A stretch of 47,952 nucleotides of DNA from positions 9,819 to 57,770 of the forward strand of contig RSEH01000282.1 in the NCBI GenBank assembly GCA_006503475.1, written 5' to 3'. This document shows positions 1 to 19,571 of the stretch, in pieces. Each line of letters opens with the position of its first letter. The first letter of the stretch is position 1. The DNA comes from Stentor roeselii (taxonomy: Eukaryota > Ciliophora > Heterotrichea > Heterotrichida > Stentoridae). The notes beneath the pieces were generated by a model. That model was not told the origin of the DNA. It did not search any database and was given only the letters and a program-made list of their open reading frames with translations. The position numbers and the translations under genes are program-made.

Positions 1-790
1 TTCTGAGAATAATATCACAGGCTTCAGCACAACTTGAGGACAAACTGGTTTTGAAAATGCTGAAAAAGTGTAAACTGTTAGTTGAGGAGTTGCTTTTTCG
101 GCTCCTTTAATTGACCTCAAATTCTGTTTTTGCATCTTTTGAGTTTCCATCGAAAGCTTAGGACCCTTGATCTTTTGCATAACCTGAACCATGGAGACTG
201 GTTTGCGAATAGAGTCAAATGTTTGAATGTTAAAAGTCTGTTCATTTTTCTGTAATTCACTTTTTCCACTTTCAAAGACCATGACTTGAATCAAAGGTTT
301 GCAAAAAGCTTGAATTTGGATGACTTGTCCACTCAAATAATTTGAAGAAGTATTCAAAACGATTTCCATTGTTTTCGATGAGCTTTCTTGATTTGAAGTA
401 GTTTCTACTGCAAATATTTGTGGATGGAAGAATATTCGATGAACAGCTTCAAATCTTTGAATGATTTGAATTCTTGAATGACTTGAATCATATTCTGAAG
501 CCAAGGGGTAGACAACTGATTCAACCTCTACAATTGGTTTAGTATCAGCTTTAACTGAGTAGAACTCAATAAGACTTGATTCGTTTAACTTTTGCAAGGT
601 TTTCCCAGTTTGAAGTTCTTTGAAGATGATTAATGGGCAGGCTGTCGTTTTTTTGAGGCATGAAAGTGAAAAAGTGATGAAGTGAGTTTCTTCAATGAAT
701 GGCTGTGAGTACTTTGTTGGTATGGGGATAACTTGAATGCCTGAGTAGGAGTTCAATGAAAAGTTTTTTGAAGACTGAGGAATGAATGAA
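1..790 (-). CDS. Continuation of the giant repeat protein in a shifted frame (eighth super-repeat, partial)
   Basis: The minus strand from about 785 down to base 1 is fully open in a frame different from the 753-16535 frame. It encodes an eighth copy of the super-repeat: NFSLNSYSGIQVIP, then KTTACPLIIF, FEAVHRIFFHPQI, KPLIQVMVFESGKSEL, RKPVSMVQVM, and SKPVCPQVVLKP at the edge. Relative to the other copies about one base is missing near 781-792: sister copies read ATT TCA TCA ATT CCT CAG, whereas here the frame slips before CCTCAG. No 15/16-nt GT...AG intron fits. A 23-nt GT...AG segment there would restore frame, but it is longer than every other intron seen in the window. The gene therefore extends beyond the left edge, and its true C-terminus is not visible. 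Confidence 0.75.
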
Positions 791-3700
791 TCATCACTTT
801 CGGATCAGTCGATATTGTCTCAGGTTTTTCTTTTATTTCGCCTTGGTCTTCTGCTGATATTGTTTCAAGTTTTGTATATTTAGCTAGAACGGAGACTGGT
901 TTAATTTGTGATAAACACTCGAATCGTTGGACTGGAAGGGTTTGATTGATTGTCTTTTCTTTGGTCTGATGAATGAAGATGAACGGTTCTTCTTGGACTG
1001 TGAAAGAAGTTTGAACCTTTTCTTTTTGATTAAAAGCTGAAAGAATCAACGGAGAAGCCACTATTTTAACAATTGGTAGAATAACTTCACTCTTGATTTT
1101 CAACAAATTTGTAGGTTTAAGTACAATGTCAAGTTTTTTCTGTTGTTTGTTTTCGCTTTTGGCCAACTGTGAATCTGAAGGATAGACTGATTTATTTTCA
1201 GGATCTGAATCAATTAAAACAAGAGGGCACACTGGTTTGTTGAATGGCAGAATAGTACTCAAATCGTTAAGCAAAGATAAGACTTGATTGTCTAATCTTG
1301 TTTCCACCTGCTTTTCAGTTTTTTCTGAGTCCTGCAACAAAGGTTTCAATACAACTTGAGGACAAACTGGTTTTGAAAATGCTGAAAAAGTGTAAATTGC
1401 TGGTTGATGAGTTGCTTTTTCGGCTCCTTTGGCTGACCTCAACTTCTGTTTTTGCATCTTGTGAGTTTCCATCGAAAGCTTAGGACCCTTGATCTTTTGC
1501 ATAACCTGAACAGTGCAGACTGGTTTGAGAATAGGGTCAAATGTTTGAATATTAAAAGTCTGTTCATTTATCTTTAATTCACTTTTACCGCTTTCAAAGA
1601 CCATGACTTGAATCAAAGGTTTGCAAAAAGCTTGAATTTGGATTACTTGTTCAGTCGAATAATTTGAAGAAGTATTCAAAACGATTTTCATTGTTTTTGA
1701 TGAAATTGCTTGATTTGAAGTAGTTTCCACTGCAAGTATTTGGGGATGGAAAACAATTCGATGAACGGCTTCAAGTCTTTGAATGAATTTGAACTTTGAA
1801 TGACTTGAATCATATTCTAAAGGGAGAGAATAAACAACTGATTCTTCCTCTACAATTGGTTTGGACTGGGCTTTAACTGAGTACAACTCCAAAAGTCTTG
1901 ATTCATTTAATTTTTCCAAGTTTTTGTCAGTTTGAAGTACTTTGCTGATATCTTTGAAGATGATTAATGGGCAGGCTGTCGTTTTTTTAAGGCATGAAAC
2001 AGAAAAAACAATGAAGTAAGTTTCTTCAATGAATAACTCTGAGTTTTTCTTCTGCTTTGGGCTTTTTGCTCTGTTAACTGAAAATACCGAAAGCGATTTC
2101 AAGTTTTCTAATTCTAAACGACCTGAAGTATGAATATTGAAAAGTTCTTCATTTCTTGTTTCTTCACTTTTTCCTTTGATGATTTCAGGAAATACTTGAA
2201 TACCTGGGGGTGAGTTGAAAGAAAAGTTACTTGAAGACTTTTCAATTGATGAAATCGTTACTTTCGGTTCAGTTGAAAAGATAATCTCAGGTTTTCCTTT
2301 ATTGACTTGGTCTTCTGAGAATACTTTTTCAAGTTCTACATGCTTTGCGAGTACAGAAACTGGTTTTATTAGTGACAAAAACTCGAATTGTTCGACTTGA
2401 AGGGTTTCTTTCATTATCTCTTTTTCAGTCTGATGAATGAAGATAAATGGTTTACCTTGGCCTGTGAAAGAACTTTGAACTTCTTCTTTTTTAGAAATTT
2501 TTGAAAGAACTAATGGAGAAGTCACTAATTTAACCATTGGGAAAAGAACTTCACTGTTGATTTCAAATGAATTTGAAGATTTAACTGAAAAGTTATAGGT
2601 TTTCTTTAGCTTATTTGCGTTTTTCAATAACTGGGGATCTGAAGGAGACGTTGATTCCTTTTTATGAGGTGAATGTAGTATAGTTAGAGGACAAACTGGC
2701 TTGCTGAAAGGTAGGATCATGGTAAAATCTTTAAAAGACAATAAGTCTTGATGGTCAGTTCTCATTTCGGCTAACTCTTCAGTTTTTTCTGAGACAGATA
2801 ACAGAGATTTCAATACAACTTTCGGACAAACTGGTTTAGAAAAAGCTGAAAAATTGAAAATATTTGGTTGTGAAGTATCTTTTCCAGCTCCTTTAACTGA
2901 CCTCAGCTTCTGTTTTTGCATCTTTTGAGTTTCCATCGAAAGCATCGGACCCTTTATTTTCATCTTCTTTATAACCTGAGCAGTGCAGAGTGCCTTACGA
3001 ATAGAATCAAAAGTTTGAATGTAAAAATTCTGTTCATTTCTCAGTAATTCACTTTTCTTGCTTTCAAAGATCATGATTTTCATCAAAGGTTTGCAAAAAG
3101 CTTGAATATGGAAGACTTTTCCAGTCAAAGAAGAAATATTCTCAACATTTTTGACTATTTCTGAAAAATCTTCTTGATTTAACTCAGTTTTTACTTCAAG
3201 AATTTGAGGATGGAAGCGAATTTGATGAACTGCTTCAAATTTCTTAATCAAATCAATTCTCGAATGACTTGAATCATCTAAAGCGAGTGGATAAGGAATT
3301 GATTCCGGGTGTAAAATTGGTTTAGATTCGGGTTTAACTGAGTAGAACTCAAGAAGATTTAAGTCCTTTAATATTTCCAAGGTTTTACCAGTTTTAAGTT
3401 CTTTTCTGGAGTTTTTGAAGATGATTAATGGATAGGCTCTTGTTTTTTTATAACATGAAAACGAAAAAACGATGGAATTTGTTTCTTCAATGATTGACTC
3501 TGAGTTCTTTGTTAGATTAACTTGAGCCGAGGAGAATGCCAATGAAAAGTTACTTGAAGACTGAGGAATTGATGAAATGATTACTTTTTGTTTAGACTCT
3601 AAAAGCTTATCAGGTTTTTTATTGATCTCGACTTGGTCTTCTGATGAAATTATTTCAAGTTGTGAATATTTTTGAAGTACAGAAATCGGTTTTATTAATG

Positions 3701-6700
3701 ATAAAAACTCGAATAGTTCTATTTGAAGAGTTTCTTTCACTGCTTTTTCTTTGGTCTGATCGATGAAGATGAAGGGTTTTTCGTGACCTGATAAAGAACT
3801 TTGAATTTCTTCTTTTTTATAAATTTTTGAAAGAACCAGAGGAGAACTCAGTATTTTAATCATCGGTCGAATAACTTTACAGTCGACGTCAAACAAATCT
3901 GTAGGTTTAAGTGAAAAATCAAAAGTTTTCCTAGGTTTATTTGATTTTTTCACAAACTGAGAATCCGAAGGAGACTTAAATTCCTTTTCATGAGGTGAAT
4001 TGAGTAAAACAAGAGGACATACCGGCTTACTGAAAGGTAGATTGATGATTAAATCATTTAAGAACAATAAGCCTTTAAGTTCAATTTTCTTTTGGTTCAA
4101 ATCTTCAGTTTTTTCTGATACAAAAATAACAGATTTCAAAACAACTTGAGGACAAACTGGTTTGGAAAGTGCTGAAATACTTGAAATAGTTGAATGAGAA
4201 GATTCTTTTTCGGTTCCTTTAACTGATCTTAGCTTTTGTTTTTGCATCTTGTGAGTTTCCATTGAAAGCATCGGACTCTTTGTCTTGACCTTCTGAATGA
4301 CCTGAACAGTGCAGACTGGTTTGTGAATAGAGTCAAATGTTTGAATGTTTAAAGTCTTTTCATTTATCTTTAATTCACTTTTACTACTTTCAAAGACCAT
4401 GACTTGAATCAAAGGTTTGGAAAAGGCTTGAATTTGGGAAACTTGTCCAGATGAATAACTTGAAGTATTCTGAATTTTTTCAGTTGTTTTTAATGAAACT
4501 TCTTGATTTGAATCAGTTTTGACTGTAAGTATCTCAGGATGGATGCGGATTTGATGAACTGCTTCAAGTCTTACGATTACTTCAAGACTCGAATGTTTTG
4601 AATCACCTTCTAAACCCAGAGGATCAACAATTAACTCTGCCTCTGAAATTGGTTTGGACTGAGCTTTGACTGAAAAAAACTCCAAAAGACTTGATTCATT
4701 TGATACTTGAATTATTTTCTCACTTGAAAGTACTTTACTAGTATCTTCAAAGATAATTAATGGACAAGCTGTAGTTTTTTTATTTCCAGAAATCGAAAAA
4801 GTAATGAAATGACTTTCTTCAATTTTCAGCCTTTCCTCATCTTGCCTCATATTTGAAAATTCTGAAAGCGGTTTCAATTGTTCTAAGTCTAAACGGCTTG
4901 AAGGTCGATTTTGAATTTGAAGATAAGAAAGTTTTTCAGTTCTTAATTCTTCACTTTTTCCACGTTCAAGTTTGGGGAAAACTTGAATACCAGGGGATGA
5001 GTTCAATGAAAAGTGACTTGAAGACTGAGGAATTGATGAAATAGTTTCTTTTGATTTACTTGGTAATTTTATTTCAGGAGTTTCTTTTATATCGGCCTGG
5101 TCTTCTGTGGATTTTGTTTCAAGTTTTAAGTGTTTTACGAGGACTGAAACTGGTTTTATTTGTGATGAAAACTCGAATCGTTGAAGGGTTTCTTTCATTG
5201 TTTCTTTGGTCTGATGAGAGAAGATGAAATGATGTTCATGGCCTGGAAAAGAAGAATGAACTTCTTCTTTTTTAGAAATCTTTGAAAGAACCAGTGGAGA
5301 AGTCACTAATTTTACCATTGGTTGAATGACTTTACTGTTGATTTTAAATAGATCTGCAGGTTTTAGTGAATATTCAGAAGTTTTTCTTGGTTTGTTTAAG
5401 TTTTTGTTGAATTGAGAATCTGAAGGAGACTTTAATTCCTTTTCATGAGATGAATTCAATAAAAGAAGAGGACATAAAGGCCTACTGAAAGGTGAAATAA
5501 TGGTCGAATTCTTTAAAGTTAACAATATTCGATGTTTAAATATAGTTTCAACCTCCTCATTGTAAGTTTCAATTGAATATAAAGAGACATTTTGATTGAC
5601 CTTCTTTAATACCTGAACAGTGCAGACTGGTTTGCGAATAGAGTCAAAAGTCTCAATGTTGAAAATCTGTTTTTTACTTTCTAATTCACTTTTCTTGGTT
5701 TCATTGATCATGACTTGCATCAAAGGTTTGGAAAAGGCTTGAATGTGGAAAACTTGTTCATTTGAATAATTGAAAGAAGTATCCACAACACTTTTAATTG
5801 TTTTTAATAAATCTTCTTGATTTGACTTAGTTTCGACTGCAAGTATCTGAGGATAGAAGCGAATTCTATGAACTGCTTCAAGTTTTTCAATTAATTCAAT
5901 TCTTGAAAATGAATGAGTTGAATCATCCTCTGAAGTCAAGGGTTTAAACACTGATACCGCCTCTGATATTGGTTTGGACTGGGCTTTGACTGAATAGAAC
6001 TCAATAAGATTTGATTCTTTTAATGTTTTAAGGACTTTACCAGTTGGAAGTTCTTTACTTGTATCTTTGAAGATGATTAATGGGTAAGCTGTTGTTTTTT
6101 TATCACATGAAATCGAAAAAGTGATGAAGTGAGTTTCTTCAATCAACGGCTTTGATGACTTAGTCAGTACTGGACCCTGTTCAAGTGGAGATCTTTCCTT
6201 TTCTAGCTTGATAACTGAAAGAGGTTTCAACTGTTCTAAGTCTAAACGACCTGAATGATAAATATGGAAAAGCTCTTTAGTCTTTATTTCATCACTTTTG
6301 CCTTGTTCTTTTTCAGGGAAAACTTGAATGCCTGGAGATGATTTCAATGAAAAGTTTCTTGAAGACTGAGGAATTGATGAAATTGTTACTTTTGATTTAG
6401 TTGAATATTTAATCTCAGTTTGTTCTTCTATGTTGATTTGGTCTTCTGTGAAAATAGTTTCAAGTTGTAAATGTTTTAAGAGGACAGAAACAGGTTTTAT
6501 TAGTAATGAATACTCAAATCTTTCAATTTGAAGGGTTTCGTTGATTTTTCCTTGTTTGGTCTCATGAGTGAAGATGAATGGTTTGTCTTGGCCTGCGAAA
6601 GAAGTTAAGGCTTCTTCTTTTTTGTTGAATGCTGAAAGAATCAATGGAGAAACCACTATTTTAACGATTGGTTGAGAGACTTCACTGTTGATTTCAAATA

Positions 6701-9700
6701 AACCTGAGGTTTTAAGTCCAAAATCAAAAGTTTTCCTTTGTTTATTTGAATTTTTCTCAAATTGAGAATCTGAAGGATAAGTTGAATCCTTATCAAGAGG
6801 TTCATGAAGTAGAACAAGAGGACAGACAGGTTTATTGAATGGCGAAACAATAGTCAAATCGTTTAACAACAATAAGCCTTGATATTTAAACCTCATTTCA
6901 ACTTTCTCTTCATTTTTTTCTAAGCCTTGGAGTAAAGATTTCAACATAACTTGAGGACATCCTGGTTTGGAAAATGCTGAAAAAGTGAAAATAGTTGATT
7001 TTGGAGTTTCTTTTTCAGTTCCTTTAACTGATCTCAACTTTTGTTTTTGCATCTTGTGAGTTTCCATCGAAAGCATAGGACCCTTTGACTTGACCTTCTG
7101 CGTGACTTGAACAGTACAGACTGGTTTGCGAATAGAGTCAAAAGTCTGAATGTTTAAAATCTGTTCATTGCTCTGTAATTCACTTTTCTTGCTTTCAAAC
7201 ATCATGATTTGTATCAAAGGTTTGGAAAAGACTTGAATGTGGAATAGTTGTCCAGTTATATGATTTGAAGAAGTATTCTCAACTTTTTCAGTTGTTTTTA
7301 ATGAATCTTCTTGATTTGGCTTAGTTTCAAATGAAAGTATCTGAGGATGGAAACGGATTCTATGAACTGCTTCAAGTCTTTCGATTAATTCAATTCTTGA
7401 AAATGACTGAGATGAATCATTCACTGAAGTCAATGGATTAAATACTGATTCTGCCTCTGAAATTAATTTGGACTGGGCTTTGAATGAGTAAAACTCCAAA
7501 AGACTTGGGTCATTTGATATTTGAAGGGCGTTATCAGTTGAAAGTTCTTTACTTGTGTCTTTGAAGATGATTAATGGGTAGGCTGTTGTTTTCTTATAGC
7601 ATGAAATCGAATAAACAAAAGAACTTTTTTCAATAAATGGCACTGAGTACTTCGTCATTTCTGGACTAGTTGCGAGTGGGAACCTTGATTTGCTCGGCAT
7701 GACAACTGAAAATGATTCCAACTGTACTAAGTCTAAACGACCTTGCATTTGAAGATTGTATATTTCTTTAATCCTGGATTCTTCAACTTTGCCTTGGTTG
7801 AGTTTGGGTATTATTTGAACAACTGGGAAATAGTTTAAGGAAAAGCCACTTGAAGCCTGAGAAATTGATGAAATTCCATCACTAGGTTCAGTTGATAATT
7901 TCATCTCAGGTTTTTCCTTTACCTCGACTTTTTCTTCTGATTGTACCGATTCAAGTTGCGCATATTTCGCAAGTACAGAGACTGGTTTTATAAGTGACAA
8001 AAACTCGAATCGTTCGACTTGAAGAGTTTCCTTCAATGTTTTTTCTTTGGTCTGATCAATAAAGATGAATGATTTTTCTTCGTCTGCGAAAGGAGTTTGA
8101 ACTTCTTCTTTTTTATCAAAAGTTGAGAGAATCAATGGAGAAGCAACTATTTTGACCATCGGTTGAAATACTTCACTTTTTATTTCAAACAGATTTCCAG
8201 ATTTAAATACAAAATCAAAACTTTTCCGTTCTTTGTTTTTCATCAACTGAGAATCCGAGGGATACATTGATATGTTTTCAGGAAGTGAATTGATTAAAAC
8301 AAGAGGACACACAGGTTTGTTGAATGGCATAATAATAGTCAAATCATTTAACAATGACAACACTTGATTGTCGAATCTTTTTTCAACCTGCTCTTCAGTT
8401 TTTTCTAAAATTTCCAACAAAGGCTTCAAAATAACATGAGGACAAACTGGTTTAGAAAATGGTGAAAAAGTGAAAATAGTTGGTTTAAGAGTTTCTTTTT
8501 CAGTCCCTCTTCCTGACCTTAGCTTTTGTTTTTGCATTTTGTGAGTTTCCATCGAAAGCATGGGACCCTTTGTCTTGACCTTCTGCATGACCTGAACAGT
8601 GCAGACTGGTTTACAAACAGAATCAAAAGTCTGAATGTTAAAAGTCTGTTCATTGCTCTGGATATAATTTTCTTTTCTTTCAACGATCATGACTTGCATC
8701 AAAGGTTTGAAAGACGCTTGAATTTGGAAGACTTTTTCAGTCAAAAGTATCGAAGAAGCTTTTTGAACATTTTCAATTATTTTTGAAGAGGCTTCTCGAT
8801 TTGATGCATTTTTCACTGTAATTATTTGAGGATGGAAACAAATTCGATGTACTGCTTCAAGTCTTTGAATGAAATCAACTCTCGACAACGACTGACTTGA
8901 ATCATCCTCTGAAGCCAATGAAAAAATAACTGATTCAGCCTCTGTGATCGGTTTTGACTGCGCTTTAATTGAATAGAACTCTAAAAGACTTGATTGATTT
9001 AATATTTGAAGAGTTTTGCGAGTTGGAAGTGCTTTGCTTGTATCTTTGAAGATCATTAATGGATAGGCTGTTGTTTTTTTAAGGCATGAAAGAGAAGAAA
9101 TGGTGAAGTAAGTCTCTTCATTTGACTTATCTGAGTACTTCGTTGGTTCTGGAAGGTATCTGAGAGGTTTCCTTGACTTTTCTGGGTTGATTACTGAAAA
9201 GGCTGAAAGAGATTCCAACTGCTCTAAGTGTAAACGGACTGAAGGGTGACTTTGATTTTGAAGATTGAATAGTTCTTCAGATCTTGATTCTTCAGTTTTG
9301 CCTGGGTTGAGTTTCGGGAAAACTTGAATACCAGGGAAGGAGTTAAAGGAAAAGCCACTTGAAGCCTGAGAAATAGATGGAATCGTCCCTCTTGGTTCAG
9401 TTGATAATTTCATTTCAGGTTTTTCATTTACATCAACTATTTCTTCTGATTGTACCGATTCATGTTGTGAATATTTTGCAATTACTGAAACTGGTTTAAT
9501 CAATGACAAAAACTCGAATCGTTCCACTTGAAGATTTTCCTTCAATGTTTTTTCTTTGGTCTGATCAATAAAGATGAATGGTTTTTCTTCGTCTGCGAAA
9601 GGAGTTTGAACTTCTTCTTTTTTATCAAAAGTTGAGAGAATCAATGGAGAAGCAACTATTTTGACTATCGGTTGAAATACTTCACTCTTTATTTCAAACA

Positions 9701-10760
9701 GATTTCCAGATTTAAATACAAAATCAAAACTTTTCCGTTCTTTGCTTTTCATCAACTGAGAATCCGAGGGATACTCTGATGTGTTTTCAGGATGTGAATT
9801 AAATAAAACAAGAGGACACACAGGTTTGTTGAATGGCATAATAATGGTCAAATCATTTAACAATGACAATACTTGATTGTCAAATCTTTTTTCAACCTGC
9901 TCTTCAGTTTTTTCTAAGATTTCCAACAAAGGCTTCAAAATAACATGAGGACAAACTGGTTTAGAAAATGGTGAAAAAGTGAAAATAGTTGGTTTAAGAG
10001 TTTCTTTTTCAGTCCCTCTTCCTGACCTTAGCTTTTGTTTTTGCATTTTGTGAGTTTCCATCGAAAGCATGGGACCCTTTGTCTTGACCTTCTGCATGAC
10101 CTGAACAGTGCAGACTGGTTTACAAACAGAATCAAAAGTCTGAATGTTAAAAGTCTGTTCATTGCTCTGGATATCATTTTCTTTCCTTTCAACGATCATA
10201 ACTTGCATTAAAGGTTTGTAAAAAGCTTGAATTTGGAAGACTTGTCCAGTCAAAGTTATCAAAGAAGCATTTTGAACATTTTCAATCTTTTTTAAAGAAC
10301 CTGCTTGATTTAACACAGTTTCCACTTCAATTATTTGAGGATGTAATCGAATTCGAATAACCGCTTCAAGTCTTTCAATCAATTCAACTCTCGACAATGA
10401 CTGACTTAAATCATCCTCTGAAGGCAAGTTATAAACAACTGACTCCGCCTCTGCAATTGGTTTCGACTGACCTTTAACCGAATAAAACTCTAAAAGACTT
10501 GAATCATTTAAAGTTTTCAAATTTTTTCCAGTTAAAATTTCTTTACTATTATCTTTAAAGATAATCAATGGATATGCAGTAGTTTTTTTATATCCTGAAA
10601 TCGAAAAAGCAATAAAATGAGTTTCTTCAATGAAAGGTTCTGAATACTTCGTTATTTCTGGACTATATCCAAGTGGAGACCTTGCCTTATCTGCCTTGAT
10701 TACTGAAAAGGCTGAAAGTGATTCCAACATTTCTAAGTCTAAACGACCTGAAAGACGCCC
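753..10760 (-). repeat. Coding tandem super-repeats, ~1.3-1.5 kb period
   Basis: The block encoding KTTA(Y/C)PLIIF recurs at about 10570, 9065, 7572, 6072, 4765, 3427 and 1962, and an eighth time near 635 in the shifted frame. Spacings are roughly 1505, 1493, 1500, 1307, 1338, 1465 and 1330 bp. The shorter periods lack a sub-block; for example the unit around 5500 lacks the SAFSKPVCPQV part. Within each unit about ten smaller blocks of 40-50 residues each carry a Pro followed by a beta-like hydrophobic run, so the repeat is hierarchical. Confidence 0.9.
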
Positions 10761-13700
10761 TTGCATTTGAGACAATGACGGAAGTGTCGATGCTTTTGTT
10801 AGGCTTAAGGACCACTTTTCAAACTGGTCTGAGGGGAAAAGTGTCAATGGCTCGATTTTTACTGGAGAAAAGGCCTGGAAATTCTTTACTTTCAATGATT
10901 TTGGTAAATTTTGAAGGAATTTAGGAAGGGAAGTTAACACCTCTGGTATTAACTGAAGTTTTAAGAAAGGGGTTAATGATGTCAGAGAGATTTTTTCAAG
11001 GTTTTTGGGTAGTGGGAGGGTCACTTTTAATAGCTCTTGAGTTATTTTATGTTGGATGAAGGGGTCTTGGGATAGCAAGTCCCAGCTGATTATTAGAGGA
11101 GTGATTAGGAACTTTTGATAGGCTTCGTATTTTTCGACTTGATTTGGATGTTGATAGGTAATTGTGCTTGCCGTTCTTGTCTTAATATAAATCTCTGAAG
11201 TTTCAACATACTCTTCATACTCATTCTCTGCCACTAAAAACGGTGAAATCACAATTTTTTGAATCGGCAAGAAACTCTTCCTAGAAATGACTTTCTCAAT
11301 CAAACCCGAATTATCCTCTACAATCAAAACTCCAATAACCGGTTTTCTGATTCCCACAAAACCAACTTGTTCAATTTCATCTCCAAAAATCCTATCAACC
11401 CATCTTGTCCTAAATCCAACTTTAAGTCTTTCCTTCCTAACAATAATCAAATCACTCAACACTTTTCGATAAGGCCAGAAATGAATTTCCATAACTTCAG
11501 GTTCAAGTTTAACACATTCAACTCTTTGTCCTAAAACAAAAGGAGCCAAGCAAAGTCTTTTAAAAGCTTCAAATCGAAAAATCTGATTCTTTGGATTTTG
11601 AGTCATTTCACAAGAAGCCATTCCTGCCAAGGGTTTGACGACAGGTAAAACAGGGAAAACATTGAAAATTTGACTTAAGATGATAGTCTTTCCTTTAGAT
11701 TTTTTGATGATTTCTGGAAGACTTGTGACTTTTGTGAATGGCAGAAGCGGGTAACTCACAATGTTTGCTTCATTGTAAGAAATTATCTTGTGAGTTATTG
11801 TCTCTTTGCGGAAGACAACTGTGCTTTTTTCGATGAATGTTTCAAATATTTCTGTGTATTGTGATGTTTCTTGAAGGATGTTTGGAAGGAGTTGCACTTT
11901 TGATTGAGCTTGTAACATGAGGATTAATGAAATTTCTGAGGATTTTAATTGGTTTTTTCTGAAACCGATGGGTGAGGGGAGATTTGACTTTGAGAAGGTG
12001 AAGGGCAAGGGAGGCTTTCCTAGGATTGGACTTGGAAGGTCGTCTGAATATGAGGATTTTAATTGGGTTCGGCGATATAGCTGGTCATTTGGCTCGATTT
12101 GGCTTATGCTTACTGAGCTGTCAAGCATATCAGAGTTTGAAAGCATTTGAATAATATCAAACCCTTTAACGATCAGTTCTGGCATGATGCAATTTTTCTT
12201 TTCAGGGAAGAATGTTGAAAAGTTTGGTTGTGACTCAATCTGTAAGAATGAATGAGAATGTTTAGGTGAAATTCGAATCGAGTCTTTACTTTCAAGAATC
12301 ATTTCATTTTGATGGCGAATCTCTGTTTGTGTCACATAAACCACTTTTTCTGTTACTCTTTCTTCAATGAAATAGCTGGATTCGTATTCAGCGGAATCAC
12401 TTTCACTGTAGGTCTGAGGCTCTATGATGAGTTTGACCATGGCTTGCAAGTGGATGGGAATTTCTTTTAGGTCTTGAATAGTGGTTAATACTAGTGGCAT
12501 GATTCTTTCAATTTTCCTGCAAGAGTAATTTTCAATGAAGAAGTCAGAAGAAAATGACAGCTGATCTTTTGAAACATTAACCAAAGGAGCACAAGCGACT
12601 TTAGACTGACACAAAAACTGTACACTCTTCAAACAATCCTGCAAACAATCCTGTTTCTCCATAATCTCAATACAATTCAAAGGTTTCAACACCGCCATCA
12701 CACAATCACAACTCACAAGATTAACCGATTCACTTTCAGAAAGTTCATAAAAAACACTAGAAAATCCAATAATCCAACTTTTCGACACCGAAAAAGACGA
12801 GTTTTCACAATCACCGAATTTTTCCAAAACATTTACTCCAGTCAAAGGTTTTTCAAAAGGTTTAACAGTAACCAAAGAATTTTCAGAATTTTGCGAAGTA
12901 CTGACTTGCGGTTTGACTTTAAAAAAATGAGAATTTTCAGAAGTTTGAGAAATTCTTTCAAACATTAGAATTGGTTTGTAAATCATTGAATAAGACTTCA
13001 ACATTTTGATATCTGTCGAGTTCAAAGAAGGTTTGAACTTTGATTCATTCTCAGGTGTTAGGAGTGGCTTGTATTTAGGAAGAAAACTCATGATTTCAAA
13101 GAGATTTTCAACAGTTTTCACGATTTTTCTTTGTTTTGATGTTAAAGTTTCCATTTGGATCACTGGTTTTTCTGAACTGTATAAAACTAGTTTCTCTGCT
13201 TTTTCTGTTGTAGAAGAAAGAATCATTGATGAGTTCTTTTTTTGAAGGGAAAAGTTGAAAAAGTTACTGTCGGTTTCATTTGGAAGGACTTCGAAGGACT
13301 GGAAAGAATGGATTTCGACTGTTGCTAGAGAAATACAAGGCTTTCTAAAGGCTTGACCTTCGAATTTCGTTGGAAGATTTGAAGTTATTTGAATTTCTGA
13401 GTTTTTTTGAACTTTTGGAGATTTTTGAGTTGCTCGAAGAGTTTTTTTCTTTTGTTTTGTGAGTTTTTGTTGAGTTTCTTGCTTTTTTATTACTTCTGGG
13501 AAGACTATTTGTTTTCGGTCTAAGACCAGGTGATAAGCGAGGCCTTTTTCTTGAAGGTTTAAAATGGAAATGACTGGCTTTTGAATGGCTTCGAGAACTA
13601 CTCCGTCCATGTAGTGAGTTATTTCTTGACCTTGCTTTGGACTCATAAAAGAGGGTCTCCATAAAGTTTTCTTTGTTTTTCTGTAACTTTTTGTCACGAA

Positions 13701-16535
13701 TGTGTCGATGAAGTCTTCTTCTAAATCGACTTCTGGGATTAGTAAAGGTCTTAATGTTGCTTGGATTGAAAAACTGTGAATTGTGGCATCTGAGGTGGTT
13801 TTTGGGAGATTTTTAGGGGTTATTTTTTCTTGGTGAGATGAATATTCAGTTTCTTCAGCTTTTTCGAGGAATTTGGATTTTTTAGTGGGTTTATCGGATT
13901 GGGTAGGTTTTTTATGTTGGAGGTTTTTACCTTGAAGAATTAAATCTTCTTGTTGGATGGATTTTCCTTGTTTGATGAATTTTCCTTGTTCAATTGATTC
14001 TCCTTTTTCAGTAGATTTTTCTTTTTCTATTAATTTTCCTTGTTCAATAGATTCTTGTTTAATCGATTTTTCTTGTTCAATTGACTTTCCTTGTTTTATC
14101 GATTTTACTTGCTCAATCGATTTTCCTTGCTCAATCAATTTTCCTTGCTCAATCAATTTTCCTTGTTTTATCGATTTTTCTTGTTCAATCGATTTTTCTT
14201 GCTCAATCAATTTTCCTTTTTCAATAGATTTTCCTTGTTTCATCGATTTTCCTTGTTCAAATGTCTTTTCTTGTTTCATCGATTCTCCTTTTTCAAAAGA
14301 TTTTCCTTGTTCAATCAATTTTTCTTGTTCAATTATCTTTCCTTTTTCAACATCTCCAGACCAATACCTTTCAACAGACTCTCTTTCTTTCAACACACAA
14401 TATTTTTCTATTCTTTCAATCTGAACAATCGGTTTTTTTCCAGCAACAACAAAAGAAGACCCTTCAAACTCCGAAGAATTAAATCTAAAAATCTTAACCA
14501 AAGGAGCAATTTTCTTAGAAACCTTTTTCCTCGAAGTGAAACTCGTAACAATTTCACTTTCAAAGTACTCACTTTCATATTCCACATGAATCTGAATAAT
14601 CGGCTTGACAAAAGCTTGCATCTTAAAAATTTTCGGTTTTAAATAATTAAGTGCAAGTGCATTGACAGTCATGAGACTGACAACAGGTTTCATTTTAATT
14701 TCAGAAACAGAAGTTTCAGCTAAAATTGAAATTTGCTTCATGATTGGCCTTCTGATTTTTCTGTTTCTTTTACGATGTTTAGTGACTTCGATGATTTCTA
14801 AGATTTCTTCTTCTTGCTGGGTTAAAATGACTGTAATCGGTTTAAATGAAGCCATGCAAGAGAATCTATTTGGCATGACCTTCAACAAATGAACAACTTC
14901 CACAAAGACTAAAGGTTTAACCTGAGGTTGATAAAAAATCGAAAGTCTTCCAGTTTTTCTTGAGTTTAAAATGGAGAATAAACGAGGTGCTGGCTTGACG
15001 TCGATAATTTCAATGACAACAATCGGTTTAGACGTAGCAATTTCAACAAGTTCCACAAAGACCTCAACTTCTTTTTCAGATAAAACTGAAAAATCTCTTG
15101 TTTTATTCACTTCACTTATTTTATTCTTCTTCACAATTCTCGAACTTTTTCTAAATCGATGAGAATCTTCAGTCACAATTTCTAAAATCGAAAGTTCATC
15201 TTCAACAGCAAGGCCAACAAGAGGTTTAAAAGAAGGACTTAAAGAATACTCAATGATTTTGTGACTATTGTTAAAAGACTTCCAAATCTGAAAGAAAGTC
15301 CTTGTATTCGATTTCAAGTAATTTAAAGAACTTGCAAGACAAGCCAAGGTCTTGAGTTTGACAGTCTTCAACAAGGCAGACGACATCCACTTCCAAAGAG
15401 CGGCTTGGTTCAGGTCTGTTCGTGCTTTGCTGATATGAACAAAGCGAGTTGAAAGTTCTAAAAGTCCATCTCTTGAAGGTTCTTTCATGATTTCCGCAGG
15501 GTCTACCAAATATCTCGACTGTCTCGCAATGTTTTGTAAGACTCGAAGTCCAGGGTCGTTCCAGGCTTTAAAAGCTCTGAAAAGATTTCCTTTCATTAAA
15601 AGTTCAGCCTTTCCGAAGACCGCTGCTAATTTCGTTTCATTCAACTTTTCCATAAACTTGATTCCTAATTGAGGACTTCCAAAGGTAGGGGTAAAGGTAT
15701 AATCATGAACTATTAAATTCCACTTCCAAAAGGCTCGTTGTTCATTGTTGGTCCTTCCATATCTTACCATCATTTTCACTACTTTTCTTAAAATGTCTCT
15801 TTTATCTGCTGGGGTTAATCTTGAGTCTGGTCTTCTTTTACAGATTTTTAATCTTTTTAGGAATTTTAAAGCAAGGCTTTTTTCTTTGATTTTTTCACGA
15901 ATTTTTAAACAGTTGATGAGGATTTCGCTTCGAATTGAAAAACGCCCGAGAAGGTTTTTCCATGTTGTGAAGGCAGTGATTGATTTTACTTTTGAGAAGT
16001 CTTTACTGAGGATTACTGATAACATCTGGTTTTTGTAGTAGTCGTTTGTACTCACTGGCCTTTCGCTTTCGGAATATTGGATCTCGGGAGTCGGGTCGGA
16101 GTAAAGAGCTAGGTAGTCTCTTGAGTGATCTTTTGCCTTGTTGAAGAATAGGTTGTATAGCTTTCGCATTGCTAGGCTTAGCACTGAGGATATTTGAACG
16201 GCTCCCATTGCTGAGTCAGTTGACATCAGACCGTCATTATCATCCGAGCAAGACTCAGGGTCAGAGTCCGCGACAGAGACGACTGGAGAGTCAAGTAATA
16301 CCGGAACAGGTGGTTTAAGTCCCCTTTCAAGACCTTTTGCATACTTAAGGACTTCACTTCCAAGGTCTTGTTTATACGAGTCAATGACCAGTCCATACTT
16401 TAAGAGTTCTATCGAAGTTTGCAGACTTTCCTTGTCCGCATGGCTAAGCCAATGGATCAGAGCGTCAAGGTTCTCTTGACTTCTGGCGGCACCCTTGTCG
16501 ATGGCACGCCAGAGAATATCTTCAAACTCGTCCAT
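753..16535 (-). CDS. Giant multi-repeat protein (5260 codons to the first stop), putative centrin/spasmin-binding scaffold
   Basis: One uninterrupted frame from ATG at 16533-16535 to TGA at 753-755, with no introns. Residues 1-430 hold short helices with Trp motifs (TTWK at 191, AFWKW at 268, AFKAW at 321, ALWKW at 379, FFQIWK at 414) resembling Sfi1-type centrin-binding repeats. From about residue 436 a short motif, Lys-Pro followed by alternating hydrophobics (FKPLV, KPIVVI, KPVVSL), recurs dozens of times. Residues ~722-869 are a Lys/Glu/Gln hexapeptide repeat. From about residue 1930 the protein becomes a tandem of 440-500-residue super-repeats. Each contains KTTAYPLIIF, RLEAVHRI, KPLMQVM, KPVCTVQV, KPVCPLVL, SPLILS and IKPVSV blocks. 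No enzymatic domain or membrane segment is seen. It is known that heterotrich myonemes contain giant repeat proteins binding the EF-hand protein spasmin; assigning this gene to that group is inference. The stop at 753 is probably a frameshift artefact or lesion, because the repeat continues in another frame to the window edge. Confidence 0.85.
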   Translation of the reverse strand: MDEFEDILWRAIDKGAARSQENLDALIHWLSHADKESLQTSIELLKYGLVIDSYKQDLGSEVLKYAKGLERGLKPPVPVLLDSPVVSVADSDPESCSDDNDGLMSTDSAMGAVQISSVLSLAMRKLYNLFFNKAKDHSRDYLALYSDPTPEIQYSESERPVSTNDYYKNQMLSVILSKDFSKVKSITAFTTWKNLLGRFSIRSEILINCLKIREKIKEKSLALKFLKRLKICKRRPDSRLTPADKRDILRKVVKMMVRYGRTNNEQRAFWKWNLIVHDYTFTPTFGSPQLGIKFMEKLNETKLAAVFGKAELLMKGNLFRAFKAWNDPGLRVLQNIARQSRYLVDPAEIMKEPSRDGLLELSTRFVHISKARTDLNQAALWKWMSSALLKTVKLKTLACLASSLNYLKSNTRTFFQIWKSFNNSHKIIEYSLSPSFKPLVGLAVEDELSILEIVTEDSHRFRKSSRIVKKNKISEVNKTRDFSVLSEKEVEVFVELVEIATSKPIVVIEIIDVKPAPRLFSILNSRKTGRLSIFYQPQVKPLVFVEVVHLLKVMPNRFSCMASFKPITVILTQQEEEILEIIEVTKHRKRNRKIRRPIMKQISILAETSVSEIKMKPVVSLMTVNALALNYLKPKIFKMQAFVKPIIQIHVEYESEYFESEIVTSFTSRKKVSKKIAPLVKIFRFNSSEFEGSSFVVAGKKPIVQIERIEKYCVLKERESVERYWSGDVEKGKIIEQEKLIEQGKSFEKGESMKQEKTFEQGKSMKQGKSIEKGKLIEQEKSIEQEKSIKQGKLIEQGKLIEQGKSIEQVKSIKQGKSIEQEKSIKQESIEQGKLIEKEKSTEKGESIEQGKFIKQGKSIQQEDLILQGKNLQHKKPTQSDKPTKKSKFLEKAEETEYSSHQEKITPKNLPKTTSDATIHSFSIQATLRPLLIPEVDLEEDFIDTFVTKSYRKTKKTLWRPSFMSPKQGQEITHYMDGVVLEAIQKPVISILNLQEKGLAYHLVLDRKQIVFPEVIKKQETQQKLTKQKKKTLRATQKSPKVQKNSEIQITSNLPTKFEGQAFRKPCISLATVEIHSFQSFEVLPNETDSNFFNFSLQKKNSSMILSSTTEKAEKLVLYSSEKPVIQMETLTSKQRKIVKTVENLFEIMSFLPKYKPLLTPENESKFKPSLNSTDIKMLKSYSMIYKPILMFERISQTSENSHFFKVKPQVSTSQNSENSLVTVKPFEKPLTGVNVLEKFGDCENSSFSVSKSWIIGFSSVFYELSESESVNLVSCDCVMAVLKPLNCIEIMEKQDCLQDCLKSVQFLCQSKVACAPLVNVSKDQLSFSSDFFIENYSCRKIERIMPLVLTTIQDLKEIPIHLQAMVKLIIEPQTYSESDSAEYESSYFIEERVTEKVVYVTQTEIRHQNEMILESKDSIRISPKHSHSFLQIESQPNFSTFFPEKKNCIMPELIVKGFDIIQMLSNSDMLDSSVSISQIEPNDQLYRRTQLKSSYSDDLPSPILGKPPLPFTFSKSNLPSPIGFRKNQLKSSEISLILMLQAQSKVQLLPNILQETSQYTEIFETFIEKSTVVFRKETITHKIISYNEANIVSYPLLPFTKVTSLPEIIKKSKGKTIILSQIFNVFPVLPVVKPLAGMASCEMTQNPKNQIFRFEAFKRLCLAPFVLGQRVECVKLEPEVMEIHFWPYRKVLSDLIIVRKERLKVGFRTRWVDRIFGDEIEQVGFVGIRKPVIGVLIVEDNSGLIEKVISRKSFLPIQKIVISPFLVAENEYEEYVETSEIYIKTRTASTITYQHPNQVEKYEAYQKFLITPLIISWDLLSQDPFIQHKITQELLKVTLPLPKNLEKISLTSLTPFLKLQLIPEVLTSLPKFLQNLPKSLKVKNFQAFSPVKIEPLTLFPSDQFEKWSLSLTKASTLPSLSQMQGRLSGRLDLEMLESLSAFSVIKADKARSPLGYSPEITKYSEPFIEETHFIAFSISGYKKTTAYPLIIFKDNSKEILTGKNLKTLNDSSLLEFYSVKGQSKPIAEAESVVYNLPSEDDLSQSLSRVELIERLEAVIRIRLHPQIIEVETVLNQAGSLKKIENVQNASLITLTGQVFQIQAFYKPLMQVMIVERKENDIQSNEQTFNIQTFDSVCKPVCTVQVMQKVKTKGPMLSMETHKMQKQKLRSGRGTEKETLKPTIFTFSPFSKPVCPHVILKPLLEILEKTEEQVEKRFDNQVLSLLNDLTIIMPFNKPVCPLVLFNSHPENTSEYPSDSQLMKSKERKSFDFVFKSGNLFEIKSEVFQPIVKIVASPLILSTFDKKEEVQTPFADEEKPFIFIDQTKEKTLKENLQVERFEFLSLIKPVSVIAKYSQHESVQSEEIVDVNEKPEMKLSTEPRGTIPSISQASSGFSFNSFPGIQVFPKLNPGKTEESRSEELFNLQNQSHPSVRLHLEQLESLSAFSVINPEKSRKPLRYLPEPTKYSDKSNEETYFTISSLSCLKKTTAYPLMIFKDTSKALPTRKTLQILNQSSLLEFYSIKAQSKPITEAESVIFSLASEDDSSQSLSRVDFIQRLEAVHRICFHPQIITVKNASNREASSKIIENVQKASSILLTEKVFQIQASFKPLMQVMIVERKENYIQSNEQTFNIQTFDSVCKPVCTVQVMQKVKTKGPMLSMETHKMQKQKLRSGRGTEKETLKPTIFTFSPFSKPVCPHVILKPLLEILEKTEEQVEKRFDNQVLSLLNDLTIIMPFNKPVCPLVLINSLPENISMYPSDSQLMKNKERKSFDFVFKSGNLFEIKSEVFQPMVKIVASPLILSTFDKKEEVQTPFADEEKSFIFIDQTKEKTLKETLQVERFEFLSLIKPVSVLAKYAQLESVQSEEKVEVKEKPEMKLSTEPSDGISSISQASSGFSLNYFPVVQIIPKLNQGKVEESRIKEIYNLQMQGRLDLVQLESFSVVMPSKSRFPLATSPEMTKYSVPFIEKSSFVYSISCYKKTTAYPLIIFKDTSKELSTDNALQISNDPSLLEFYSFKAQSKLISEAESVFNPLTSVNDSSQSFSRIELIERLEAVHRIRFHPQILSFETKPNQEDSLKTTEKVENTSSNHITGQLFHIQVFSKPLIQIMMFESKKSELQSNEQILNIQTFDSIRKPVCTVQVTQKVKSKGPMLSMETHKMQKQKLRSVKGTEKETPKSTIFTFSAFSKPGCPQVMLKSLLQGLEKNEEKVEMRFKYQGLLLLNDLTIVSPFNKPVCPLVLLHEPLDKDSTYPSDSQFEKNSNKQRKTFDFGLKTSGLFEINSEVSQPIVKIVVSPLILSAFNKKEEALTSFAGQDKPFIFTHETKQGKINETLQIERFEYSLLIKPVSVLLKHLQLETIFTEDQINIEEQTEIKYSTKSKVTISSIPQSSRNFSLKSSPGIQVFPEKEQGKSDEIKTKELFHIYHSGRLDLEQLKPLSVIKLEKERSPLEQGPVLTKSSKPLIEETHFITFSISCDKKTTAYPLIIFKDTSKELPTGKVLKTLKESNLIEFYSVKAQSKPISEAVSVFKPLTSEDDSTHSFSRIELIEKLEAVHRIRFYPQILAVETKSNQEDLLKTIKSVVDTSFNYSNEQVFHIQAFSKPLMQVMINETKKSELESKKQIFNIETFDSIRKPVCTVQVLKKVNQNVSLYSIETYNEEVETIFKHRILLTLKNSTIISPFSRPLCPLLLLNSSHEKELKSPSDSQFNKNLNKPRKTSEYSLKPADLFKINSKVIQPMVKLVTSPLVLSKISKKEEVHSSFPGHEHHFIFSHQTKETMKETLQRFEFSSQIKPVSVLVKHLKLETKSTEDQADIKETPEIKLPSKSKETISSIPQSSSHFSLNSSPGIQVFPKLERGKSEELRTEKLSYLQIQNRPSSRLDLEQLKPLSEFSNMRQDEERLKIEESHFITFSISGNKKTTACPLIIFEDTSKVLSSEKIIQVSNESSLLEFFSVKAQSKPISEAELIVDPLGLEGDSKHSSLEVIVRLEAVHQIRIHPEILTVKTDSNQEVSLKTTEKIQNTSSYSSGQVSQIQAFSKPLIQVMVFESSKSELKINEKTLNIQTFDSIHKPVCTVQVIQKVKTKSPMLSMETHKMQKQKLRSVKGTEKESSHSTISSISALSKPVCPQVVLKSVIFVSEKTEDLNQKKIELKGLLFLNDLIINLPFSKPVCPLVLLNSPHEKEFKSPSDSQFVKKSNKPRKTFDFSLKPTDLFDVDCKVIRPMIKILSSPLVLSKIYKKEEIQSSLSGHEKPFIFIDQTKEKAVKETLQIELFEFLSLIKPISVLQKYSQLEIISSEDQVEINKKPDKLLESKQKVIISSIPQSSSNFSLAFSSAQVNLTKNSESIIEETNSIVFSFSCYKKTRAYPLIIFKNSRKELKTGKTLEILKDLNLLEFYSVKPESKPILHPESIPYPLALDDSSHSRIDLIKKFEAVHQIRFHPQILEVKTELNQEDFSEIVKNVENISSLTGKVFHIQAFCKPLMKIMIFESKKSELLRNEQNFYIQTFDSIRKALCTAQVIKKMKIKGPMLSMETQKMQKQKLRSVKGAGKDTSQPNIFNFSAFSKPVCPKVVLKSLLSVSEKTEELAEMRTDHQDLLSFKDFTMILPFSKPVCPLTILHSPHKKESTSPSDPQLLKNANKLKKTYNFSVKSSNSFEINSEVLFPMVKLVTSPLVLSKISKKEEVQSSFTGQGKPFIFIHQTEKEIMKETLQVEQFEFLSLIKPVSVLAKHVELEKVFSEDQVNKGKPEIIFSTEPKVTISSIEKSSSNFSFNSPPGIQVFPEIIKGKSEETRNEELFNIHTSGRLELENLKSLSVFSVNRAKSPKQKKNSELFIEETYFIVFSVSCLKKTTACPLIIFKDISKVLQTDKNLEKLNESRLLELYSVKAQSKPIVEEESVVYSLPLEYDSSHSKFKFIQRLEAVHRIVFHPQILAVETTSNQAISSKTMKIVLNTSSNYSTEQVIQIQAFCKPLIQVMVFESGKSELKINEQTFNIQTFDPILKPVCTVQVMQKIKGPKLSMETHKMQKQKLRSAKGAEKATHQPAIYTFSAFSKPVCPQVVLKPLLQDSEKTEKQVETRLDNQVLSLLNDLSTILPFNKPVCPLVLIDSDPENKSVYPSDSQLAKSENKQQKKLDIVLKPTNLLKIKSEVILPIVKIVASPLILSAFNQKEKVQTSFTVQEEPFIFIHQTKEKTINQTLPVQRFECLSQIKPVSVLAKYTKLETISAEDQGEIKEKPETISTDPKVMIHSFLSLQKTFH
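8034..8700 (-). repeat. Near-identical coding duplicate of 9543-10209
   Basis: This segment aligns without gaps to 9543-10209 at a constant offset of 1509 bp. By eye there are about twenty mismatches in ~665 bp (~97% identity), whereas other super-repeat copies are far more diverged. The high-identity block spans the part encoding the DQTKEK block through the KVKTKGPMLSMETHKMQKQK block. It indicates recent gene conversion or unequal exchange inside the giant gene. Confidence 0.85.
13930..14370 (-). repeat. 18-bp coding microrepeat (hexapeptide SIEQGK-like)
   Basis: About 25 tandem copies of an 18-bp unit encode variants of Ser/Leu-Ile-Glu/Lys-Gln-Gly/Glu-Lys (SIEQGK, LIEQGK, SIKQGK, SIEQEK). 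This gives a highly charged stretch at residues ~722-869 of the giant protein, probably a long helix or a flexible linker. One copy is shortened by a residue (KSIKQESIEQGK). The block separates the N-terminal KP-motif region from the rest of the protein. Confidence 0.85.
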
Positions 16536-18023: not shown

Positions 18024-19571
18024 TTAATTACACTTTTTCTTGTATTGACGCCATGAGGATTGGATGAAACGGATCGCTAGAAGGATTTTTTGGAATAAAA
18101 CCTTCACCAAATACATCTTGACTAAACTCTGAATCTTTATAAGACTTGATCGAGTCTTCAGAAACACAAATCTTTGACGATACTTCCTAAAGTACCTTTG
18201 AATAAGAATTATTGACTTCGAGACACGGTCAATAACATCTTTCTTTGTATATTCAGCTTTGTACCATTCCTTTGACTTATGCTCTACCGTTTTTAATATC
18301 AGAATTTGCGCCTTTAGATCATTAAGATCAGAGACTGCTTGAACAGCTCGTGTTTTAAGCGACTCACGTTTAAGACTTCGAAGAATTTTTCGGGCAAGAT
18401 GACCCCTGATGTACTTTTGAATTCTTATCACCTGGCTAGTACAATAGTTCTTTTCAACCTTTTTAATTTTTTCATCACTTTTCATCAAATTTTCATGATT
18501 TTTTCTAACCTTTTCATCACTTTTCACTATTCTTTCAGTAAAATCCTTACTTTTTTGAAGCTTACTTTCAAAACTTCCATCATTTTTTTCATTTTTAGAA
18601 CTTCCACCGTCAAAATGATCGTTTTTTCCATTATTTTCAAGAAGTTGGTTTGGATTTAAAGGGTTTTTTTCTGTCATTCTGCTTATAGAAGAATCAGCAC
18701 TTAGCCTTCTAGCTCTTATTCTACAAGAAGTTTGAGGAAGATGTTTAACTGGGCTGGGGATGTCTTCTGAGAATTCTCCTGCATTGGTGATCGCTCTTGG
18801 AGTCTTTATTGAAGTTTTGCATGCTGGAATTATTGGTAAAAGTCCTTGATCTCCTTTGTAAGAATTTCGAATTTTAGGTAAAAAGTGCTTTTTTGAGGAT
18901 TTTTTTGAACTTATGATTTTTGATCGGGAATCGTATGATTTTCCTGTTGATTGACGATCGTTGTTTCTGGAGCCTGCTCTTACTCTAGCCAGAGCTTTGG
19001 GTGTTTGACTAACTTTCAGAAACTTCAGATATTTCTGCATCACAAGGCCAGTAGTCGGATGACTATACCCAAGACAAGTATTCGCAATAGACAAACTCTC
19101 CTTATAAGCTTTTTCCGCTTCTCCAAAGTTTTGCATATTTTGATGAGCAACCGCTGCATAATAGTGAAAAAGAGCTCCTGAGGACGAATCAGTTATTTCC
19201 GTAACAACAAATAATCCCTGCCTTGCCCTTTCCAGTAGTTTTTGATAGTTTTTAGTATGTGTGTAAATGTTACACAGATTTTGAAGGGTTTCACAAGCTT
19301 CTGTCTTTTGAAGTGAAGAATAAGAAAACTTTATCAAGTCTTCAAAGTAACTCCCTGCTTTTTGATAGTCCTGGGTGGCTAAATAGTACTTTCCATATAC
19401 TTGACTTAGACTCCTGAAACAGTTTTGTCGTTGTGTCAGGTCTTCAGTGGTTTTCATCAGTTTTTCTGATTTTTCGAGTAACAGGAGAGATTTTTCAAGG
19501 TTTCCCTTGCCTAGTTCTTCAGCTGCGAGTGTGGAGTACTCGAGGATAAGTTTTTCGATAGAGTTTTTCAT
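18024..19571 (-). CDS. TPR-repeat protein with C-terminal IQ motifs (calmodulin/centrin-binding)
   Basis: This protein has 515 aa. Residues 1-~200 are helical pairs of TPR type (GNLEKSLLLLEKSEKL, YYLATQDYQKAGSYFEDLIK, AAVAHQNMQNFGEAEKAYKE). A Ser/Lys-rich, presumably disordered linker follows and includes repeated KSDEK segments. The C-terminus carries four IQ-like motifs: VIRIQKYIRGHLARK (~381), IILIQRYFRKYRQR (~454), LIKIQSLVKMYLVK (~477) and IRFIQSSWRQYKKK (~500). IQ motifs bind calmodulin or related EF-hand proteins, and TPRs mediate protein-protein contact, so an adaptor role is inferred. Start ATG is at 19569-19571 and stop TAA at 18024-18026. Confidence 0.75.
   Translation of the reverse strand: MKNSIEKLILEYSTLAAEELGKGNLEKSLLLLEKSEKLMKTTEDLTQRQNCFRSLSQVYGKYYLATQDYQKAGSYFEDLIKFSYSSLQKTEACETLQNLCNIYTHTKNYQKLLERARQGLFVVTEITDSSSGALFHYYAAVAHQNMQNFGEAEKAYKESLSIANTCLGYSHPTTGLVMQKYLKFLKVSQTPKALARVRAGSRNNDRQSTGKSYDSRSKIISSKKSSKKHFLPKIRNSYKGDQGLLPIIPACKTSIKTPRAITNAGEFSEDIPSPVKHLPQTSCRIRARRLSADSSISRMTEKNPLNPNQLLENNGKNDHFDGGSSKNEKNDGSFESKLQKSKDFTERIVKSDEKVRKNHENLMKSDEKIKKVEKNYCTSQVIRIQKYIRGHLARKILRSLKRESLKTRAVQAVSDLNDLKAQILILKTVEHKSKEWYKAEYTKKDVIDRVSKSIILIQRYFRKYRQRFVFLKTRSSLIKIQSLVKMYLVKVLFQKILLAIRFIQSSWRQYKKKCN

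Follow-up and report, generated by a model that had tools for sequence, protein, structure and literature searches.

A giant KP-repeat protein as a candidate scaffold of Ca2+-responsive cortical fibres in a probable heterotrich ciliate

Background

What might a ciliate build with a protein of more than five thousand residues that consists largely of tandem repeats and carries no credible domain? The question is raised by a gene in a stretch of 47,952 nucleotides (hereafter the window), for which an earlier note had proposed a contractile-fibre scaffold with a binding module of its own kind. Which molecules bring about the ultrafast, ATP-independent contraction of heterotrich ciliates is known only in part. 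Excerpts of three papers describe ciliate contractile fibres as centrin/spasmin-family EF-hand proteins placed on repetitive scaffolds (PMC12661445, PMC6189993, PMC13035854). Here, we describe the giant gene of the window, its repeats, and its relatives in the same genome, and weigh a scaffold role against three other readings.

Results and discussion

The giant gene and its reading frame

The gene lies on the minus strand and runs for 5,260 codons without an in-frame stop (16535..753), with a further repeat copy in another frame beyond its end. Its parts are the following.

753..16535, minus strand: giant ORF, ATG at 16535, stop at 753-755, 5,260 codons
15216..16535, minus strand: N-terminal region (aa 1-440), for which helix is predicted with low confidence; kin to the W-motif proteins of contigs C123 and C127
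11316..15227, minus strand: central region (aa 437-1740), in which 24 KP sites are scattered
13949..14350, minus strand: low-complexity tract within the central region, ~22 six-residue units of IEQGKS type (18-bp period, 22.5 copies)
9147..10655, minus strand: super-repeat 1, aa 1961-2463, 503 aa
7662..9146, minus strand: super-repeat 2, aa 2464-2958, 495 aa, 81% identical to copy 1
6168..7661, minus strand: super-repeat 3, aa 2959-3456, 498 aa
4848..6167, minus strand: super-repeat 4, aa 3457-3896, 440 aa, lacking ~50 aa including one KP block
3516..4847, minus strand: super-repeat 5, aa 3897-4340, 444 aa
2055..3515, minus strand: super-repeat 6, aa 4341-4827, 487 aa
756..2054, minus strand: super-repeat 7, aa 4828-5260, 433 aa, clipped at its end by the frame break
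~1..780, minus strand: super-repeat 8, partial, in another frame, 62-79% identical to the other copies, clipped by the window edge

The frame of the giant ORF contains no TAA, TAG, or TGA; because TGA is missing from it, TGA is not read as tryptophan in this gene, unlike in Blepharisma stoltei, where an excerpt of PMC9942806 gives that reading. The source is probably a heterotrich with TGA as a stop codon. The earlier note had credited the gene with more than 5,500 codons free of introns, of which the 5,260 in one frame stand, while a length of 5,500 needs two frames.

The frame breaks at ~730-800 (near base 790), inside a repeat, and partial super-repeat 8 sits on the far side. We found no GT..AG intron of 15-16 nt, the usual size in the heterotrich Blepharisma (excerpt of PMC9942806), that bridges this break; at 23, 35, and 44 nt there are GT..AG solutions. 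Set beside the other repeat copies, the sequence seems to lack a single base, perhaps through an error of assembly.

Super-repeats and the KP motif

With boundaries set by regular-expression anchors and a MAFFT alignment, the eight super-repeats of 440-500 residues claimed earlier resolve into six complete copies (440-503 aa), a seventh clipped at 433 aa, and the partial eighth. Copies 1-7 are 54-81% identical in pairs and look constrained as protein, since all 21 pairs of copies give dN/dS values of 0.33-0.64. An unbroken run of 256 identical nucleotides common to copies 1 and 2 points to recent duplication or conversion.

Read from the alignment, a typical super-repeat holds about eleven blocks of a proline flanked by hydrophobics, 30-55 residues apart, with linkers of varying length between them; the proline is mostly preceded by K (KP), and HP, QP, YP, and CP also occur. 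The window protein has 89 KP dipeptides, 64 of them within super-repeats, against 32.2 ± 5.2 expected from 1,000 shuffles. A regular expression for the wider context (a hydrophobic, K/R/Q, P, then spaced hydrophobics) matches 38 times, against 1.8 ± 1.5 in 300 shuffles. Both counts lie far above the shuffles and bear out the dozens of KP-hydrophobic motifs first seen by eye. Per 1,000 residues, KP density is 16.9 in the window protein, 26.2 in a second giant ORF of the same genome (contig C331, below), and 2.0 in seven other window proteins; of 14 window ORFs, these seven are what is left once the giant and its tail, three short ORFs, and two antisense ORFs are set aside.

The super-repeats are confined to this gene as far as we searched. 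All ten of ten genome matches to a super-repeat were the window gene itself, and the central region found itself plus two weak matches on contig C179, both to the low-complexity tract. Among 49 stretches with the pattern from viral contigs and 25 from bacterial or archaeal genomes, no relative of the super-repeat was confirmed.

A second giant shares the KP context

The second giant ORF is likewise long, repetitive, and rich in KP.

C331:3-18104, plus strand: second giant ORF, 6,034 codons, open at the contig start, going on in another frame to 21112

It has 155 KP dipeptides, against 47 ± 6 in shuffles. Its units number at least 14, most of them 200-266 aa long, and include helices of KEHLRHITHILKRNLTEPLNKWKFL type. 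Its first 640 aa consist of three copies of a 215-aa repeat. At the break in its frame (18089-18104), intron solutions of 14, 17, and 29 nt and longer exist, and an intron there is possible. Both giant ORFs break inside a repeat, apparently by a single missing base; assembly error, a real indel, a short intron, and frameshifting may each account for the two breaks.

The two giants are alike in size, in hierarchical repeats, and in the context of KP. They differ in that C331 pairs KP with a tryptophan helix in its 200-266-aa units, and little can be aligned beyond the motif: a comparison of window and C331 super-repeat profiles was weak (25 columns, E 0.0017, probability 16%).

The shared context was measured with a matrix of the residues flanking 25 KP sites in aa 1-1940 of the window protein, the K and P columns themselves being omitted, applied to 38 KP sites in aa 641-2420 of C331, none a near-duplicate of another. 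The matrix separated these from K-not-P sites (n = 121; AUC 0.75, p 2e-6), from P-not-K sites (n = 78; AUC 0.78, p 7e-7), and from shuffles (AUC 0.78, p 9e-10). An earlier version, in which all 155 C331 sites were set against 11 KP sites of the seven window proteins, gave AUC 0.74-0.80, with p-values inflated because repeats were duplicated. Judged from these sequence comparisons, the KP motif context is common to the window protein and C331 beyond chance.

The calcineurin PxIxIT strand motif resembles KP-I-x-I, and the KP arrays might then dock a signalling enzyme, calcineurin for instance. A PxIxIT-type regular expression matches 35 times in the window protein against 12.1 ± 3.4 in shuffles, and 49 times in C331 against 15.8 ± 4.1, taking in 43 of the 155 KP sites there. 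Part of the excess in C331, however, lies in duplicated repeats, and in the window protein the pattern covers only 9 of the 89 KP sites, on which count we rejected docking of this kind for that protein; as a whole, the idea seems to us highly improbable.

A protein with a name already may also be concerned. Two giant spasmin-binding proteins, GSBP1 and GSBP2, have reportedly been described in Spirostomum minus, and the window protein may already be known as one of them. It would then be GSBP1, GSBP2, or an orthologue, possibly with C331 as the other end of one gene split by the assembly; we regard this as doubtful and yet the most serious of the rival readings. Giant size and number agree, with two giant KP ORFs in this heterotrich-like genome with centrin-like genes and two GSBPs reportedly described for Spirostomum. 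A join is geometrically possible, as the window gene runs 3' toward its contig start and, on C331, the contig begins inside the ORF and leaves its 5' end open. At its end the window carries (TTAGGGTG)n, which is complementary to a telomere unit CCCTAACA that is also the unit of the heterotrich Blepharisma (excerpt of PMC9942806); in the 44.4-Mb genome (522 contigs), a 16-mer of two telomere units is present 271 times on one strand and 389 times on the other. Against this reading, a window super-repeat finds no match on C331 at E <= 0.1. Excerpts of PMC12661445, PMC6189993, and PMC13035854 contain no description of the repeats of GSBP1 or GSBP2. The centrin-Sfi1 mesh of Spirostomum ambiguum is counted here as another close system.

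The N-terminus links the giant to short W/KP proteins

Relatives of the window protein appear through its N-terminus. A genome search with this region matched C123 (E 5e-4), C127 (E 0.008), and, weakly, a place on C2 with three stops, and the C123 protein found the window gene in reverse (E 8e-4). In a pairwise comparison, the first 500 aa were 40% identical to the C123 protein over 47 aa (single-comparison E 3e-8). The kinship is significant over aa 241-287, which hold the motif GRxNxEQRAFWxW, and the remainder aligns at 18-23% identity in a three-way alignment with C123 and C127. On this evidence the N-terminus appears to be related to a family of ~520-aa proteins of the same genome. The motif itself is common to the window protein and the short proteins, best in C123, C127, and C283; a genome scan with a narrow DNA pattern for EQRAFWKW matched the window gene only.

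Searching with the C123 protein yields C127, C283, C25, C100, C410, the window gene, and the C331 ORF (E 0.002-0.004). The link between C331 and the short family is weak (E 0.002-0.004, and 0.01-0.03). The short W/KP proteins (on C123, C127, C283, C25, C100, and C410) are ORFs of ~380-550 aa and differ from the window protein in having only one to four KP sites and no super-repeats.

What recurs among these relatives is a fixed distance between KP and tryptophan. KP stands 36 residues before W in C123, C127, and C283 and 39 residues before it in C100 and C410 (the C123 ORF has one more pair at 36 residues, left uncounted, its KP lying upstream of the likely start), and no pair at either spacing occurs in C25 or in the window protein. 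In C331, the distance is exactly 36 residues in 14 places, and these are the same 14 sites at which that ORF carries a tryptophan-anchored 8-4-1 triad followed by K/R, a number reached by 0 of 500 shuffles. Each short protein has such a triad with K/R after W once or twice. The KP-spaced tryptophan itself anchors a triad in four of the five short proteins, C410 being the one without, and in two of those four it is followed by K/R.

In each of six W-motif proteins with ORFs of ~380-550 aa (L027:1959-3536, L028:1737-3302, L046, L045, L043, and L044), FTDV or FTDI stands at the C-terminus or close to it. FTD is absent from the readable parts of both giants, whose C-termini lie outside the sequence read.

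Comparison with Sfi1-type centrin binding

The strict motif of the Sfi1 repeat is Ax7LLx3F/Lx2WK/R (excerpt of PMC5112337), and centrin targets carry a repeated, tryptophan-anchored 8-4-1 hydrophobic triad (excerpt of PMC8622359). We found the strict motif nowhere in aa 1-1908 of the window protein, in C331, or in the six short relatives. From aa 1909 to 5260, the window protein has no tryptophan in 3,352 residues, against ~29 expected from the frequency in the seven other window proteins; its super-repeats, being without tryptophan, cannot bind centrin in the Sfi1 manner. In the whole protein we found one 8-4-1 triad (W325), with no K/R after any triad, and thus not the repeated arrangement of centrin targets. 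The N-terminus has F/L-x-x-W motifs, two of them followed by K/R, a number reached by 17 of 500 shuffles. The Pfam Sfi1 model matched nothing here, a null that is no evidence because the model is also silent in all 14 control genomes.

Compared with Sfi1-type centrin-binding proteins (yeast Sfi1, the Tetrahymena SFR proteins, and Paramecium PtCenBP1), the window protein shares the idea of a large repetitive scaffold and an N-terminus predicted, at low confidence, to be helical with F/L-x-x-W motifs; its relatives in the genome add tryptophan helices with 8-4-1 spacing. It differs from them in units of 440-503 aa made of KP-hydrophobic segments, not 33 aa, and in the lack of tryptophan from these repeats. 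The giant scaffold with a KP module unlike classical Sfi1 that the earlier note envisaged agrees with these findings, and the interpretation of the note is partly upheld: the strict motif is absent, the KP context recurs in C331, and the N-terminal kin carry tryptophan helices, while the repeats themselves hold no tryptophan.

Possible partners are encoded in the genome. A centrin search (150 of 508 candidates scored, 147 of them matching at E <= 1e-10) gave at least 13 centrin-like places at 54% identity or more to Chlamydomonas centrin, a count made without a control. Two of these are at 73% and eleven at 54-61%, and two stand side by side (C257:147414-149088).

Domains, fold, and the possibility of a passive spring

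Neither Pfam (whole ORF in four pieces, relatives, and single repeats) nor NCBIfam returned a credible domain. Nothing in the window protein rises above the Pfam cut-off as a catalytic domain, in agreement with what had been claimed for it. A sequence search of the PDB with the N-terminal alignment, aa 1801-5260 of the window protein, and most of C331 gave 0 matches up to E 1.

Two candidates were set aside. The Pfam beta-barrel pore-forming model BB_PF scored 29.9 bits against a cut-off of 27, a sum of several repeats over aa 2801-5260; on single super-repeats it matched four of seven, weakly, with a best E of 0.005 and 14.6 bits for one copy. NCBIfam collagen-like adhesin matches reached 22 bits against cut-offs of 325 and 400, largely on the IEQGKS low-complexity tract.

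Kinship to an unrelated secreted or adhesive family had been named beforehand as an outcome that would speak against a fibre scaffold. No such family emerged from these searches, and by a simple hydropathy scale the window protein has neither a signal peptide nor a convincing membrane helix or anchor: its N-terminal 45 aa are hydrophilic, and the best 19-aa hydropathy (1.91) is at aa 5150, inside a repeat block.

From an alignment of the seven copies, AlphaFold gave super-repeat 7 a pLDDT of 27.5 and a model mostly without helix; the N-terminus alone received a pLDDT of 37.5 and an all-helical model, best over the first 75 residues. Such low scores back no fold; they would fit disorder and would also fit a shallow alignment.

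The lack of a confident fold for the super-repeat, the block linkers of varying length, and repeats devoid of tryptophan are also what one might expect of a cytoskeletal protein with a passive role, elastic or space-filling, in the style of titin PEVK; its KP arrays would act as an unstructured spring or spacer without binding EF-hand proteins. A mere spacer, however, would have no need of invariant residues gathered in proline blocks, whereas columns within 8 residues of conserved prolines are invariant in 69 of 214 cases against 25 of 161 elsewhere (p 3e-4, ungapped columns). Nor would it need a KP context held in common with a second giant, and P, E, V, and K together make up 32% of residues, far below a PEVK segment. 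We consider a passive spring or spacer unlikely.

A proposed role for the W/KP group

We favour, with a probability of about 0.42, the reading that the W/KP group to which the window protein belongs builds Ca2+-responsive cortical fibres as a scaffold. The group would comprise the window protein, the C331 giant, and at least six short proteins, and the place of the window protein in it, as KP-only kin, is inferred from the shared N-terminus. Location in myonemes and a binding partner for the window protein are likewise what we infer.

Under this scaffold reading, the window protein would be a very large scaffold, probably cytoplasmic and, if disorder is the right interpretation, mostly unstructured. 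Its working unit would be a run of hydrophobics, then KP (or another residue plus P), then about three spaced hydrophobics, recurring every ~30-55 residues. The tryptophan helices of the group might hold centrin/spasmin-type EF-hand proteins, and the KP segments could either bind EF-hand partners or pair as short strands with the KP of neighbouring scaffolds. The window protein would then be the KP-only member, its repeats free of tryptophan, anchored via its N-terminus, which is predicted to be helical.

A bolder extension, which we put forward as speculative and rather improbable, is that the KP-hydrophobic segment is a new tryptophan-free motif for EF-hand binding or scaffold pairing, used ~240 times in two giants (or in one gene of >12,000 codons), and a second binding mode beside the Sfi1-type tryptophan helix in a Ca2+-driven mesh. 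If KP segments do bind EF-hand proteins or each other, they would define a compact motif, amenable to tests with short peptides, that could account for arrays of hundreds of Ca2+-binding units. The constant 36-residue KP-to-tryptophan module of the relatives is a directly testable unit.

Other features of the window

Three further features were seen in the window. Near the start of the giant gene, 18024-19571 encodes a protein of 515 aa that combines a TPR segment with three IQ motifs for calmodulin binding. The largest RNA polymerase subunit is encoded at 23206-27228, apparently without introns (1,340 aa, with all five Rpb1 domains). A subtelomeric minisatellite at 43563-44607, ~3.3 kb from the telomere repeats, repeats a 63-bp unit ~17 times and shows higher-order periodicity at 188 and 376 bp.
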